DNA from: Gemmatimonadota bacterium
GTDB lineage: Bacteria; Gemmatimonadota; Gemmatimonadetes; Longimicrobiales; Gaopeijiaceae
Length of the DNA stretch: 64,000 bases
Direction of reading: 5' to 3'
Assembly: GCA_030428885.1 (NCBI GenBank)
Contig: JAUIEJ010000001.1
Coordinates: 372,001-436,000, forward strand
Part shown: piece by piece, positions 30,724-38,680 of the stretch
How the letters are laid out: each line of letters starts with the position of its first letter
How positions within the stretch are numbered: the first letter of the stretch is position 1
Made by a program: the position numbers and the translations under genes
The notes under the pieces: model-generated
Database searches by the model: none
The model's input: only the letters and a program-made list of their open reading frames with translations
What the model was told of the DNA's origin: nothing

Positions 30724-31560
30724 TCAGTCCCGGGGAGCTTCCGCCACTTCTCGCTTCAGATCGTCCAGGGTGAGGCTCCGGCGCTGACCCGAGCCGCTCC
30801 GGAGGGTCACGGTCTCCTGGAGGATGTCCACCGCCACCACCCGCTCCTGACCGCGAGACGTGCGGACGGTGCGTCCCTCCCGGGGGAATCTCCTCCGGGA
30901 CTCCACGTAGGTGCGGTGCTCGTACATGAGGCAGCACATGAGCCGGCCGCAACACCCCGAGATCTGGGCGGGATTGAGAGAGAGGCGCTGGTCCTTGGCG
31001 AGTTGGAGGCTCACGGGCTTGAGTTCGGGCAGCCAGGTGGAGCAGCAGAGCTCCCGGCCGCACCGCCCCACGCCGCCCAGGAGGGCGGCCTCGTCCCGGA
31101 CGCCGATCTGCTTCAACTCGATGCGGGTCCGGAAGGTCCGGGCCAGGTCCCGGACGAGTTCCCGGAAGTCCACCCGGCGGTCGGCGGTGAAGTAGATGAT
31201 CAGCTTGTTGCGATCGTGCTGCCACTCGGCCTCGGTGACCTTCATCTTGAGGCCGTGCTTCTTCACGAGCCCGCGGGTCCGGGCCCGGACCCGGTGCTCG
31301 TCCTCCCGCAGGTCGTCGAGGCGAGCCACCTCGTCGCCTTCCGCTTCCCGGATCACCTTCCGGTCGGGCGTGGGGGTGGCGCACCCCCCCGACGACGAGC
31401 ACTTCCGCTCGGCGATGAGACCCACGGCGGTGACCTCGCCCACGTCCTCCCCCCGATCCGCCTCCACCACCACCCACTGTCCCGGGCGCAGGTCGAGGCC
31501 CGGCGCGGTGAAGTACTCCCGGCGGGTGCCCTTGAAGCGGACCTCGGCGAAGGCCGTCAC
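30724..31560 (-). CDS. ricT: PSP1-domain protein RicT (YaaT)
   Basis: 278 residues from the GTG at 31560, with GGAGG just upstream. The cysteine motifs diagnostic of RicT are all present: CSSSGGC, CGRELCC and CCGRLMCC. In Bacillus, RicT works with RicA and RicF as an iron-sulfur complex that influences RNase Y and mRNA maturation. Those partners are not seen here. Neighbourhood with metG is conserved in many bacteria. The gene follows accA with one base between them and probably shares its promoter. Confidence 0.93.
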   Translation of the reverse strand: MTAFAEVRFKGTRREYFTAPGLDLRPGQWVVVEADRGEDVGEVTAVGLIAERKCSSSGGCATPTPDRKVIREAEGDEVARLDDLREDEHRVRARTRGLVKKHGLKMKVTEAEWQHDRNKLIIYFTADRRVDFRELVRDLARTFRTRIELKQIGVRDEAALLGGVGRCGRELCCSTWLPELKPVSLQLAKDQRLSLNPAQISGCCGRLMCCLMYEHRTYVESRRRFPREGRTVRTSRGQERVVAVDILQETVTLRSGSGQRRSLTLDDLKREVAEAPRD

Positions 31561-31561
31561 C

Positions 31562-32569
<1,008 letters not shown>

Positions 32570-32661: not shown

Positions 32662-34353
32662 TCAGGCTCCGTCGTCTCGCCGGTGGAGCAGCCACCCGTC
32701 GGGGTCCAGCACCACGGTGGCGTCGGCCGGCGCGCCCTCGATGGTGAGCTCCCCGCCCGATCCGTCCAGGCGCAGGGTTCGGCGCACCGTGCCGCCGTCC
32801 CACGAAACCTGGAGGTCCACGGGGATCACGAAGCGGGGGGCGTAGGCGCCCTGGACCTGCTCCACCCGGATCCGCAGCCCCTCGGGAACCGCGTCGGTCT
32901 CCACCGCCAACACCGGGTACCCGGGCCGGAACAGCCACTGGTCGAAGAAGGTCGCCAGGTCGGTCCCGGACACCTCCTCCAGGACCGCCCGAAGGTCGTC
33001 GGTGATGGCCGTGGCGTCGCGGTAGCGGTCGTAGTAGGCCCGGATCCCGTCGAAGAACGGACCGTCACCCAACTCCCGGCGGAGCATGTGGAGCACCCAT
33101 CCGCCCTTCTGATAGCTGTTCCGGTTGAGGAGCCCGAAGAGGTCGGGGCGACCGTCCACCACCGGCCGGGCCGAGTCGCCCGAGGCCAGGTACGCCGAGG
33201 CTGCCGAGGCCATGCGTTCCCTCAGGGCGTCGGGGCCGTCGACGTCCTCGAAGAAGAGGGCGCCGAAGTACGTGGCGAAGCCCTCGGACAGCCACAGATG
33301 GCTCCAGTCGGCCTCGGTGACGCTGTCGCCGAACCACTGGTGGGCGGTCTCGTGGCTCACCGTGCCCTCGATGTCGCGCCCGGCGGCGATGGCCTGCTGG
33401 GAGTAGAAGATGGCCGAGCTGTTCTCCATGCCGCCGAAGCGTGTGGCGGACTGGACGTGGGCCAGCTTCTCGTACGGAAACGGACCCACCCGTTCGGCGA
33501 AGAAGTCCACCATCTCCGCACCGCGGCGGAACGAGGCGCGGCCCCCCGCGGCGCTCTCGGGAAACAACCAGGTGGTCACGGCCACGCAGCCGTCGCTCCG
33601 GGACGACGCCGGGGCCGCGCCGCAGGCGGCGAGCCCCACCGTGTCCACCACCATCTCGGCGCCTCCCACCACCAGGGTGTAGGTGGGGTGGGGCACCTCG
33701 GTGGCGTAGCGCCAGGTGCGCCGGGGTCCCACGTCGGGGCCGGGCACGTCGGGGTCGGTGGCCTGGGGCGAGCCCAGGGCACGTCCGTTGGCGATGACCT
33801 GCCACGGGGCCGGCGCATGGATCGTGAAGGTGGCGGTGGCCTTGTCGGAGGGGTGGTCCACCGTGGGGAGCCAGAACCGGGTGCGGTTGGGCCAGTTGTC
33901 CACGAACGCGCTGGGGGCGCCGTGGACCGTCTCGCCCAGGATCAGGCCGTCGTCGGGCACGCCCCGGTACGACACGGTCACCGTGGCCTCGGCGCCCACG
34001 GCCGGGGGGGCGGCGAAGGGCACACGAAGGAGGCCCTCGTCCATGGACCAGTTCGAGACCTCGGCGCCGTCCACGGCCACGCCGTCCACCGCCAGGCCCG
34101 AGAAGTCCAGGGTGAGCGACTCCACGGCCGCCTCGGCCCGGATCAGGATCGATGCCCGGCCCTGAATCCACCCCGGTCCCAGGGGGAGGGCCACCTCCAC
34201 GTCGTAGTGGAGCACGTCGATCCCGTCGTCGGCGTAGCGCCCGGGGGGCGACGCCAGGCCCGCCTCCACCGGGGCCGGTTCGTCGGGAAACGCCTCGGGA
34301 GCCTGGCCCGCCAGCGGGGCGGCGGCCAGGAGGAACGCCAGAGACGCCTTCAC
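32662..34353 (-). CDS. M1 family aminopeptidase, exported
   Basis: 563 residues from a GTG that overlaps the response-regulator fusion's stop by four bases. A signal peptide (ASLAFLLAAAPLAGQ) exports it. The catalytic domain has the exopeptidase motif GGMENSSAI and the zinc motif HETAHQWFGD with the third ligand Glu in LWLSEGFATYFG, exactly the HExxH-18-E layout. It lacks the large C-terminal superhelical domain of PepN, which is common in exported M1 enzymes. It is translationally coupled to the REC/PIG-L-like gene, which hints at a shared response. Confidence 0.92.
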   Translation of the reverse strand: MKASLAFLLAAAPLAGQAPEAFPDEPAPVEAGLASPPGRYADDGIDVLHYDVEVALPLGPGWIQGRASILIRAEAAVESLTLDFSGLAVDGVAVDGAEVSNWSMDEGLLRVPFAAPPAVGAEATVTVSYRGVPDDGLILGETVHGAPSAFVDNWPNRTRFWLPTVDHPSDKATATFTIHAPAPWQVIANGRALGSPQATDPDVPGPDVGPRRTWRYATEVPHPTYTLVVGGAEMVVDTVGLAACGAAPASSRSDGCVAVTTWLFPESAAGGRASFRRGAEMVDFFAERVGPFPYEKLAHVQSATRFGGMENSSAIFYSQQAIAAGRDIEGTVSHETAHQWFGDSVTEADWSHLWLSEGFATYFGALFFEDVDGPDALRERMASAASAYLASGDSARPVVDGRPDLFGLLNRNSYQKGGWVLHMLRRELGDGPFFDGIRAYYDRYRDATAITDDLRAVLEEVSGTDLATFFDQWLFRPGYPVLAVETDAVPEGLRIRVEQVQGAYAPRFVIPVDLQVSWDGGTVRRTLRLDGSGGELTIEGAPADATVVLDPDGWLLHRRDDGA

Positions 34354-35729
34354 GGCCCGTCGCTCCCGGCCGGCCCGCCGGGGGTGGGAGGACGGCGTCC
34401 CGCCGGGGGCATCATGGGGGGCGGCGGCACCCGACGAGGGGGCGCGGGCTCGGGGGGCGGTGGGGTCGGCTCGGCCTCCGGCACGTGGACCGGCTCCGGG
34501 ACGGGCTCCGAGACCGGCTCCGGGCTCGCGGTGACCCGGGGCTCCGGGGAGGCCTCGGGCTCCGGGGCGGGCTCCGGCTCCGACACCGGCTCGGCCGCCA
34601 CGTCCACGGCGGGCGGCTCGGGTTCCAGCGACCCGATCTCCACGGGCTCGCGCTCGGGTTCGGGTTCGGGTTCGCGGTGGGCTTCGAAGTCGGGGGTCGT
34701 GCCCGCGTGCTGCTCCGTGGCCTCGGCCTCCCGCGCCGGGCCGCTGTCCAGGAGCTCGAAGGGCTCCACCTCCGAGAAGTCCTTGAACCGGCCCCAGTAG
34801 CGAGCCTGGGCCATGGCGAAGTCGGGCGACGTCTCTCCCGACCCGCCGCCTGCCGGGTGGTAGTAGGCCAGGGCGCCCACCTTCACGTCCATCCATCGTG
34901 CCACGTCGCGATAGACGCTGGGGGCGAAGTCCAGGGACGCCGAGGGCGAGGAGTACGCCAGGACCGTGGGCACCCCCCGGGTGGCGGCCGAGGCCACGGC
35001 GTGGGCATCCCGCCGGATTCGATTCCGGTCGGCCACGCTGGGCACGTAGGCCCAGGTGGGGCGCATCTCGTCCACCACGCGTCGCAGCAGGAGTCGGCGC
35101 TGGTCCAGGTCCGACCCCGCGGGCGTGGCACTGGCCACCACCAGGCGCACGCCCAGGTGGGCCGCGGCCTTCCGGGCCCGTCCCAGGAGGCGGTCGCCAT
35201 CCTCCCCGGTGCCCAGGACGAAGATGAGGACGTCGTGCCCCGCGGCCTGGTGGGCCGACAGGGACGCGCCACACCCCACCTCCACGTCTCCCGGACGGGC
35301 GCCGATGGCGATGACCGACGGCGCCCGTTCGCCCTCGGAGCGCCACCGGGGCAGCAGTTCCCGGAGGCGAGCCTCCAGGTCCTCGGGGTCCACCGGCTTG
35401 GTCATGAGGGCGTCGACCCCGGCCCGGTACGCCCCCTCCACGTAGTTGGGGTCGGTGTAGCCCGTGGCGGCCAGCACCGGAAGCTGGGGGAAGCGTCCCT
35501 TGAGCTTCCGGGTCAGCTCGAACCCGTCCATGCCCGGGAGATTCAGATCCGTGAGGATCAGGTCGAATCCGCCCTCCTTCGCCAGTCCCAACGCCTGCAC
35601 CCCGTCCTGCGACAGGGTTACGTCGAAGGGGCCCAGCTTCTGGAGCAGGGCCGAGAGCAGGAGGGACTGGTCGGGCGCGTCCTCGACCAGGAGGATGCGG
35701 AACACGGAGTCGGTTGCCGAGTCGCTCAC
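34350..35729 (-). CDS. response-regulator receiver fused to degenerate PIG-L-like domain
   Basis: 459 residues from the GTG at 35729. Residues 10-125 form a complete receiver domain: acidic pair Glu 16/Asp 17, phospho-acceptor Asp 61, Thr 89 and Lys 111. Residues 137 to about 335 resemble PIG-L/LmbE deacetylases (VIAIGARPGDVEVGCGASLS, VLIFVLGTGEDGD). The canonical AHPDDE metal motif reads A-R-P-G-D-V-E here, so the His ligand and the catalytic Asp are missing. The HPDH-like motif is likewise replaced (RRDAHAV). The last 120 residues are Glu/Pro-rich and probably disordered. The domain may have become a phosphorylation-controlled binding module. It is coupled to the M1 peptidase gene. Confidence 0.8.
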   Translation of the reverse strand: MSDSATDSVFRILLVEDAPDQSLLLSALLQKLGPFDVTLSQDGVQALGLAKEGGFDLILTDLNLPGMDGFELTRKLKGRFPQLPVLAATGYTDPNYVEGAYRAGVDALMTKPVDPEDLEARLRELLPRWRSEGERAPSVIAIGARPGDVEVGCGASLSAHQAAGHDVLIFVLGTGEDGDRLLGRARKAAAHLGVRLVVASATPAGSDLDQRRLLLRRVVDEMRPTWAYVPSVADRNRIRRDAHAVASAATRGVPTVLAYSSPSASLDFAPSVYRDVARWMDVKVGALAYYHPAGGGSGETSPDFAMAQARYWGRFKDFSEVEPFELLDSGPAREAEATEQHAGTTPDFEAHREPEPEPEREPVEIGSLEPEPPAVDVAAEPVSEPEPAPEPEASPEPRVTASPEPVSEPVPEPVHVPEAEPTPPPPEPAPPRRVPPPPMMPPAGRRPPTPGGPAGSDGP

Positions 35730-35838: not shown

Positions 35839-36633
35839 TTACCGACGGCTGGCCTGCACGCGATGCACCAGCTTGGCCATGAGGGTGCGGGGAAGCCATC
35901 GGGGGAGGACCGCCGACAGCTTGTTGAGCCACCCCGGCACGACCCTGCGGCGACCCGCCAGCGCCGCGTCCAGACCGGCCCGAGCCACGGCGCGGGTCTC
36001 CACCATGCCCCGGGCCGCCGCCCCGGACGATCGGGCGCCGGCCCGCTCCAGGAAGGGGGTGGGCAGGGGGCCGGGGCAGAGGCAGGTGACGCTCACCCCG
36101 GTGCCGGTCAGTTCCTCGGCCAGGGCGTCGGAGTAGGAGAGGACGAACGCCTTGGTGGCGTAGTACGTGGCCATGAGGGGGCCCGGTGTGAAGCTTCCCA
36201 CCGAGCCCACGGTGAGGATCCGTCCCTGTCCACGCGCCACCATGTCGGGGAGCACCCCCCGGACGAGTCCCACCGTGGATTCGACGTTGAGGTGCAGCAT
36301 GTCGCGCTCGGCCGCCGCATCGGTGTCCAGGTAGGGCCCGTGGAGTCCGATTCCGGCGTTGGCCACCAGGAGGTCCAGTGGCCGGGCCAGGGCCCGCACG
36401 TCGGCGAGGGCGGCGTCCACCTCCGAGCCGCGGCTCAGGTCCCGGGCCAGGACGTAGGCTTGGCCGCCGTGGTCCTGCTCCAGCTCCCCCCGGATCGCCT
36501 CCAGCGTGTCGTGGCTGCGGGCGCACAGGGCCACGTCCCATCCCTCGGCGGCCAGGAGGCGGGCGAATTCGAGGCCCAGTCCCGACGACGCACCGGTGAC
36601 CAGGGCCAGGGGCCGCGTCCCGGGGGTCGTCAT
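35839..36633 (-). CDS. short-chain dehydrogenase/reductase (DltE/YqjQ-like)
   Basis: 264 residues. The cofactor motif TGASSGLG near residue 17, the NAG motif (LVANAG) and the catalytic Ser plus YYATK (Tyr-x-x-x-Lys) are all present. The C terminus is basic and hydrophobic (LPRWLPRTLMAKLVHRVQAS), which may contact the membrane, as in DltE-like SDRs. The substrate is unknown. The ATG overlaps the upstream MFS stop by four bases (ATGA), making it the last gene of the SDR-MFS-SDR operon. Confidence 0.88.
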   Translation of the reverse strand: MTTPGTRPLALVTGASSGLGLEFARLLAAEGWDVALCARSHDTLEAIRGELEQDHGGQAYVLARDLSRGSEVDAALADVRALARPLDLLVANAGIGLHGPYLDTDAAAERDMLHLNVESTVGLVRGVLPDMVARGQGRILTVGSVGSFTPGPLMATYYATKAFVLSYSDALAEELTGTGVSVTCLCPGPLPTPFLERAGARSSGAAARGMVETRAVARAGLDAALAGRRRVVPGWLNKLSAVLPRWLPRTLMAKLVHRVQASRR

Positions 36634-37883
36634 CCGGCGGCGTCGGGCTCCGTGGCGGCGCGCAGCCCGTCGCCGCCCGCCACCAGTTGCCCGGAGGCGC
36701 GGGGCTCGGGAATGAAGAACCAGACGATGAGTCCCATGCCCAGCACCGACACCGCGCCCAGCACCGTGTTGCTGGCGTAGCCCCGCTGGGCGAAGAGGGG
36801 ACCGGCCACGGCGCCGCCCACTGCGAAGCCCACCTGGCCCAGGGCCACGGTGAGGCTCATGAGCGACCCCCGGCGGTGGTCGTTCACCAGGGCGGTGAGG
36901 AGGGCGGAGAAGGGGGAGATGCGCATGGCCACCAGGACCATGGTCATGAAGAAGACGGGGTAGGCGACCCAGAACGTGGTCACCACCACGGTGGTGAGGA
37001 GCATGACCACCGAGAGTCCGGCGCAGGCGATGAGGATGATGCCTTTGCGGCCGATCCGATCGCTGAGTTTGCCGGCCTGGGGTCCCGTGAAGACGTTGGC
37101 GAGTCCCCCTACGAAGAAGAGGGTGGCGATGCCGTTGGGGGTGGCCTCGACGAACGAGCGCTCGAGCCAGGTGGGCAGGTAGACCACGTAGAGGGAGATG
37201 GCCAGGAACATGAGGAAGAACGCCGCCGAGGCCCACGCGATCTCGGGGCGCCGGAGCATGGCCAGATAGTCCCGGAAGGCCCCCATGGCCGTGAGGGGCC
37301 CGGTGGACCGCACCACGTCGGGCTGGGGCACCTTGAGCAGGATCAGGAACCAGGTGAGTGCCATGGTGAGGGCGAACACGCCGAACGGGGCGCGGATGCC
37401 CAGCCGCGCGGCGATGACGATGCCCAGGGGGATCCCGATGATCTGGCCGAAGGCCGACCCGCTCATGATCCAGCCGGTAGCCCACCCCCGGCGGTTGTAC
37501 GGGAAGTAGTCGCCCACGTACGACACCGCCGCGCCGCTCAACACGCCTCCGGCCACGCCGGCGAAGATCCGCACGGCGAGGAACGACGCGTAGCCCTGGA
37601 CGAAGTAGTGCATGGACAGGGCCACCGTCATGATGCCCGTGCCCAGGAGGAGGATCCTGCGGCGTCCGATCTTGTCGGAGATGGGCCCGGAGATGATGGC
37701 GAAGATGCCCACCATGAGGGCGTAGGCCGACACCAGGGTGCCCAGGGCGGCGTCGGCGATGTCCAGCTCCTCGCCGATCTGGGGCAGGATCGGCGAGATG
37801 ATCATGATCTGACTCGCCGACGAGAAGACCAGCAGCCAGAGGGCGAAGACGATGACCCAGGGGCGGGTTCGTTCGGGCGTCAC
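36630..37883 (-). CDS. MFS transporter
   Basis: 417 residues from a GTG that overlaps the SDR stop by four bases. About 12 hydrophobic segments and the MFS loop 2-3 signature (SGPISDKIGRRRILLLG), repeated in the second half as GKLSDRIGRKG. It resembles drug-efflux-type MFS proteins (DHA1-like). The substrate cannot be inferred. Flanking SDR genes in the same operon suggest export or import of a small organic compound that they also modify. Confidence 0.9.
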   Translation of the reverse strand: MTPERTRPWVIVFALWLLVFSSASQIMIISPILPQIGEELDIADAALGTLVSAYALMVGIFAIISGPISDKIGRRRILLLGTGIMTVALSMHYFVQGYASFLAVRIFAGVAGGVLSGAAVSYVGDYFPYNRRGWATGWIMSGSAFGQIIGIPLGIVIAARLGIRAPFGVFALTMALTWFLILLKVPQPDVVRSTGPLTAMGAFRDYLAMLRRPEIAWASAAFFLMFLAISLYVVYLPTWLERSFVEATPNGIATLFFVGGLANVFTGPQAGKLSDRIGRKGIILIACAGLSVVMLLTTVVVTTFWVAYPVFFMTMVLVAMRISPFSALLTALVNDHRRGSLMSLTVALGQVGFAVGGAVAGPLFAQRGYASNTVLGAVSVLGMGLIVWFFIPEPRASGQLVAGGDGLRAATEPDAAG

Positions 37884-38680
37884 TCGGGTGGGGGACCGGG
37901 ATCCGGTTCCTTGTGGACGACCGTGGCGTGCCGCTGGTCGGTGGGCATGAGGACGAGGTTGAAGATGTCCACGTGCTCGGGGGCGTTGACCACGTACAGC
38001 ACCGCGTCGGCCACGTCGTCGGGGGTCAGGGGGGTGTAGCCCCGGTAGACCCCCTCGGCCCGTTCGGTGTCCCCGTGAAAGCGCACTTCGCTGAACTCGG
38101 TCTCCACCAGGCCCGGGTCGACGCTGGACACCCGCACCCGGGTGCCCACCAGGTCGATGTTCAGCCCCTCGCTCAGGGCCCGCACGGCGTACTTCGTGCC
38201 GCAATAGACGTTGCCGGACGGGTAGACCCAGCGCCCGGCGATACTGCCGATGTTCACCACGTGGCCCCGGTCCGCCTCCACCATGGCCGGAAGGAAGGCC
38301 CGGGTCACCCAGAGCAGCCCCTTCACGTTGGTGTCGATCATCTCGTCCCAGTCGTCGGCGTCGCCCGACTGGAGCGGATCCATGCCCCGGGCCTTACCGG
38401 CGTTGTTGACGATGACGTCGGGGGTGAACCCCTGGGCGGCGAGGGTGTCGCGCAGGGCGGTGACGGCCGCCCGGTCCCGGACGTCCAGGGGCGCGGCGAA
38501 CACGTCGGCGCCGTGGGCGTCTCTCAACTCGGTCGCCAGGGCGTCGAGGCGCTCCCGGCGGCGGCCGGTGAGGACGACCCGGGCGCCCTCCCGGGCGAAG
38601 TAGCGGGCGCACGAAGCGCCGATTCCGGCGGTGGCGCCGGTCACGAGGACCGTGCGGCCCCGGATGCGATTGACGGGCAT
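37880..38680 (-). CDS. short-chain dehydrogenase/reductase (YdfG-like)
   Basis: 266 residues from ATG 38680. TGATAGIGASCARYF binds NADP, NNAGKARG and the catalytic YCGTK (Tyr-x-x-x-Lys) follow, and VSSVDPGLVETEFSEVRFHG is typical of YdfG-like 3-hydroxy acid dehydrogenases acting on serine, threonine or related substrates. It is the first gene of the operon. The minus-strand promoter TTGGCG, 17 bases, TATTGT lies 31-59 bases upstream. Confidence 0.9.
   Translation of the reverse strand: MPVNRIRGRTVLVTGATAGIGASCARYFAREGARVVLTGRRRERLDALATELRDAHGADVFAAPLDVRDRAAVTALRDTLAAQGFTPDVIVNNAGKARGMDPLQSGDADDWDEMIDTNVKGLLWVTRAFLPAMVEADRGHVVNIGSIAGRWVYPSGNVYCGTKYAVRALSEGLNIDLVGTRVRVSSVDPGLVETEFSEVRFHGDTERAEGVYRGYTPLTPDDVADAVLYVVNAPEHVDIFNLVLMPTDQRHATVVHKEPDPGPPPE

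Follow-up and report, generated by a model that had tools for sequence, protein, structure and literature searches.

The window, by which we mean the whole 64,000-nucleotide stretch of Gemmatimonadota DNA analysed here, carries a gene that we read, with a probability of about 0.5, as an orphan response regulator whose output is a non-catalytic pseudo-deacetylase working as a phosphorylation-controlled scaffold. The evidence leans towards a wider proposal, in which zinc-less PIG-L outputs form a lineage-wide class, descended from a receiver-controlled deacetylase that lost catalysis once, and act through phosphorylation-dependent binding. As the zinc site was probably lost once in a common ancestor and the domain has been kept since, the signalling of the protein probably depends on binding and not on chemistry. 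The gene and its parts, all on the minus strand, are as follows.

34350..35729, minus: whole gene, receiver plus zinc-less PIG-L domain plus Pro/Glu-rich tail, 459 aa (ORF, orthologues)
35355..35702, minus: receiver domain, aa 10-125, with phosphoacceptor D61, acidic pair E16/D17, T89 and K111 (Pfam PF00072, 4.9e-25; invariant residues)
34752..35315, minus: pseudo-PIG-L domain, aa 139-326 (approximate) (Pfam PF02585, 3.5e-5; AlphaFold2 model; fold comparison)
35280..35300, minus: degenerate motif 1, ARPGDVE, aa 144-150, at the HPDDxE position, D148 retained (alignment)
35013..35024, minus: degenerate motif 2, NRIR, aa 236-239, at the HPDH position, with R239 for zinc ligand H147 (alignment)
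34752..34817, minus: conserved C-terminal element around ARYWGRF...EPFE, aa 305-326 (pair identity)
34353..34721, minus: Pro/Glu-rich tail, aa 337-459 (sequence)

Receiver and PIG-L fold

The open reading frame starts with GTG at 35729 and stops at 34350. The initial annotation had called the receiver complete on the basis of Asp 61, Thr 89 and Lys 111, and all three are present, together with the acidic pair that completes the set expected of a response regulator; none of the 42 degenerate relatives departs from D61 or K111. The profile search proposed as a check on the second domain does find PIG-L, although at 24.7 bits the match lies under the gathering score of 28.2 bits, and standard annotation could therefore miss the domain. 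An AlphaFold2 model of the window protein, built with 13 orthologues, has a mean pLDDT of 89 and a pTM of 0.63, so that the domains are well defined while their relative placement is not. The modelled C-terminal domain can be overlaid on BC1534/BshB, B. subtilis BshB, GalB and TT1542 (VIA-align Z 23.6-25.0 over about 190 residues), and the model and the fold comparison both give the Rossmann-like fold of the LmbE-like/PIG-L superfamily. A structure prediction lacking this fold had been named at the outset as the outcome that would count against the annotation, and the fold was recovered.

Loss of the zinc and substrate site

The signature of the LmbE-like/PIG-L superfamily is HXD1D2 plus a distant H, comprising the metal ligands His, Asp and His and a catalytic Asp (PMC4101496). 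Compared with MshB numbering, the window protein has R145 for H13, G147 for D15, D148 for D16 and R239 for H147; both His ligands and the general base (the catalytic Asp) are thus missing, and D2 is the sole survivor of the signature. The alignment with HPDDxE therefore bears out the earlier reading of ARPGDVE as the counterpart of AHPDDE with its zinc His and catalytic Asp replaced, and the HPDH-like motif, likewise described as altered, reads N-R-I-R at 236-239. Across the degenerate fusions D1 is Gly in 40 of 42 and D2 is Asp or Glu in every one, a pattern that excludes chance; none has both His ligands together, and the second His alone is found in four. The particular replacements carry little weight alone, since His to Arg and Asp to Gly are one transition each.

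The substrate-binding side of the pocket has gone the same way. At the position aligned to the TT1542 EER, the substrate Arg is present in all four intact fusions as opposed to 5/42 degenerate ones, in which the GE of the substrate loop is likewise eroded. The PIG-L domain as a whole has a mean pair identity of 0.35; the value rises to 0.60 in the motif-1 backbone and 0.52 in the C-terminal element and falls to 0.22 in the substrate loop. No part of the domain is better conserved than the motif-1 loop, and the C-terminal element is among its best-conserved stretches. The Rossmann core and the C-terminal YWGRF element persist while the substrate Arg and its loop are lost. PIG-L chemistry is very probably absent from the window protein, and the domain would qualify as a pseudoenzyme, its catalytic residues having been lost in a conserved and selected lineage.

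PIG-L proteins without the receiver were also noted. The other PIG-L protein of the genome that holds the window (L151; G000:C20:187053-187448) has an intact HPDDE and an apparent signal peptide. In stand-alone PIG-L proteins of Actinomycetota, PGD replaces PDD (HPGD in L125-L127, YPGD in L124), and loss of the catalytic Asp therefore also occurs in stand-alone proteins.

Intact relatives and origin

A tree of the degenerate fusions (n=42), the intact fusions (n=4) and outgroups was built with the eight motif columns left out. A branch supported at 95/99 separates all 42 degenerate fusions, as one clade, from the four intact fusions and the outgroups. The case that the initial annotation had named as refuting, the same architecture with an intact motif, does exist in L018, L068, L070 and L106, each of which has a complete HPDD...H site and the substrate Arg, but all four lie outside the degenerate clade and show ancestry rather than refute the pseudo-deacetylase reading. 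The complete predicted sites of these four relatives show that the receiver-PIG-L architecture can carry a catalytic output. With outgroup rooting giving the direction from enzyme to dead form, the simplest history is probably that of a receiver-controlled deacetylase followed by one loss of catalysis and long retention.

The positions of the intact genes differ. L018, the intact gene of genome G014, occupies the same canonical locus as the degenerate gene, with SDR-MFS upstream, M1 downstream and an insert of about 9 kb, and so is probably its orthologue. Both intact copies of G130 and the copy of G256 are away from the canonical locus, at which G130 also has a degenerate copy (L055/L095). 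L068 (G130) and L106 (G256) are each next to an ATP-grasp gene (PF15632), which in L068 is followed by a 1209-aa PAS-HisKA-HATPase-REC-REC-Hpt hybrid kinase; L070, the second G130 copy, has the same layout as judged by ORF size only. Intact fusion, ATP-grasp protein and hybrid kinase may together be a candidate phosphorylation-controlled deacetylase pathway. The regions holding intact fusions are L147:9548-15463, L148:3222-9017 and L150:76-2153; the fusion is followed by ATP-grasp in L147 and L150, L147 also has the hybrid kinase with Hpt, and L148 is alike by ORF size.

Locus and distribution

The degenerate gene lies in the order SDR-MFS-[gene]-accA-psp1-metG, and wherever a degenerate locus has sufficient flank it lies, with essentially no exception, between MFS_a and accA-psp1-metG on the same strand. 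Its neighbours in the window are listed below.

36630..37899, minus: MFS_a, conserved upstream neighbour, named MFS-like from sequence; position and strand kept in nearly all orthologous loci
35839..36600, minus: short-chain dehydrogenase (SDR) between MFS_a and the gene, matched there only in genus g1
32662..34356, minus: M1 aminopeptidase directly downstream, variable neighbour (Pfam PF01433)
31562..32548, minus: accA, conserved downstream neighbour (Pfam PF03255, 6.9e-145)
30724..31584, minus: psp1 (PSP1/RicT-like), conserved downstream neighbour (Pfam PF04468)

The stretch 36630..37899 that we call MFS_a has no Pfam match. Coupling to an exported M1 aminopeptidase, which had been offered as context for the fusion, does not hold up: M1 lies between the gene and accA in only about 14 of 39 loci (manual tally) and occurs at that place in loci without the fusion as well. 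In genomes without the fusion MFS_a and accA are still close (L132, L133, L137, L146). The adjacent pair accA and psp1 (30724-32548 of the window, minus strand), usually then metG, was seen in nearly every genome of the family examined, with the fusion or without it. No HATPase_c match that would mark a linked histidine kinase lies inside the window; the nearest on the contig is about 13 kb past the window end, and the genome has 54 such matches.

Among 121 genomes of the GTDB family to which the window belongs, 50 carry the fusion by a full-length profile search at E<=1e-30, some of the matches being fragments. Widening the profile search from family to order added no further family, and 395 genomes drawn evenly from the phylum added one, G256, of another family. 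Named records with the same kind of locus are Gemmatimonadota MAGs, mostly titled Gemmatimonadetes, Gemmatimonadales or Longimicrobiales. A scan of genome contigs with one pattern, covering the PGD form of the motif only, gave fusions in Gemmatimonadota records only; it also picked up PIG-L proteins that stand alone, from Actinomycetota and a Desulfovibrio. The Desulfovibrio phylum, of which 395 genomes were searched with no positive control, gave no match to the fusion at E<=1e-40, and a contig scan with the window protein as single query gave no match.

Alternative readings and proposed mechanism

A decaying PIG-L passenger behind a receiver that acts alone, in the manner of Spo0F or CheY, is an unlikely reading, although several observations are in its favour. 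Mean pair identity is higher in the receiver (0.47) than in the PIG-L part (0.35). Over half of the genomes of the family have no fusion gene, and several copies look broken or shortened (a remnant in G022, split genes in G009 and G116), which may be assembly errors. Gene absences and broken copies also count against the scaffold reading, as does the faster evolution of the PIG-L part in genus g1, at 62-72% identity as against 82-91% for the receiver. Against a passenger, the dN/dS of the PIG-L part (NG86) is well under 1 in each of nine pairs of the degenerate clade (0.09-0.39, rough values given the large synonymous distance in most pairs), and the PIG-L domain is full-length in nearly all of the more than 40 genomes that carry the fusion. 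By these comparisons of coding sequence, purifying selection maintains the degenerate gene, which stays at one conserved locus. In G022 the canonical locus has no full gene; a stretch there that is like the C-terminal element (ARYLGRLHNFTEVEAFETLRG; L130:4811-5284, minus strand) is a probable gene remnant.

A little less plausible still is a pocket that serves as a phosphorylation-gated sensor or binder of a small molecule (sugar, phosphosugar or nucleotide), Arg side chains having taken over from the metal. Retention of D148 or Glu in 42/42 relatives, the presence of R or K at one or both former His positions in 41/42 (Fisher p 0.015) and the strong conservation of the motif-1 loop would all suit such a pocket. 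Neither Arg is fixed, however, the substrate Arg and its loop are lost, and the conservation of the motif-1 loop may be structural. The idea that Arg compensates for the lost zinc is itself not claimed, since tree-based independent pairs, one for and one against, show no association. The initial annotation had proposed a phosphorylation-controlled pseudo-deacetylase output that binds a sugar or other ligand; the conserved receiver and dead PIG-L domain uphold the output, while loss of the substrate Arg and its loop weakens the sugar. An enzyme with a changed active site, like the hydratase GalB, whose PIG-L fold is among the closest (Z 25.0), is very improbable, as no conserved replacement set of His, Asp, Glu or Cys is seen at the site and no degenerate-clade member has both His ligands.

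Under the scaffold reading, an unlinked histidine kinase would phosphorylate D61, and this would alter the arrangement or assembly of the PIG-L part. With its retained Rossmann core and C-terminal element, that part would offer a scaffold for protein binding or oligomerisation and would hydrolyse nothing. The reading draws on the stretches that are conserved (motif-1 backbone and C-terminal element as against the substrate loop) and on oligomer formation in BshB, in which dimers that arise by exchange of beta-strands probably make up the hexamer (PMC4101496).

Comparison with known systems

The window protein shares with the LmbE-like/PIG-L deacetylases BshB, MshB and TT1542 a fold that extends over about 190 residues (BshB and TT1542: Z 23.6-25.0) and the D2 Asp, and with TT1542 also the C-terminal YWG...E element. 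Unlike them it is without the two His ligands, the catalytic Asp and the substrate Arg, and it sits behind a receiver. The intact fusions have the same architecture but keep the complete HPDD...H site. Response regulators whose outputs are enzyme domains, active or degenerate, are already known. PorX-type regulators are alike in having a receiver wired to an enzyme-derived output, and PorX chains were among the fold-search matches, most likely through the receiver; the PorX output has the fold of the alkaline-phosphatase superfamily, which is different from PIG-L. In regulators with degenerate GGDEF/EAL outputs an enzyme domain past catalysis is kept as a binding module, which resembles the dead output proposed here, whereas fold and chemistry are unrelated to PIG-L. 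A full-text search of open-licence papers for a receiver with PIG-L or LmbE gave no relevant paper. If our reading is true, PIG-L, in a catalytic and a dead form, joins the outputs under two-component control, and the intact sisters beside the dead clade offer a natural before-and-after comparison of an enzyme becoming a signalling module.

Near the end of the Pro/Glu-rich tail the window protein has the sequence RRVPPPPMMPP, a possible short binding motif, and a similar motif is found in the tails of G001 and G003 only.
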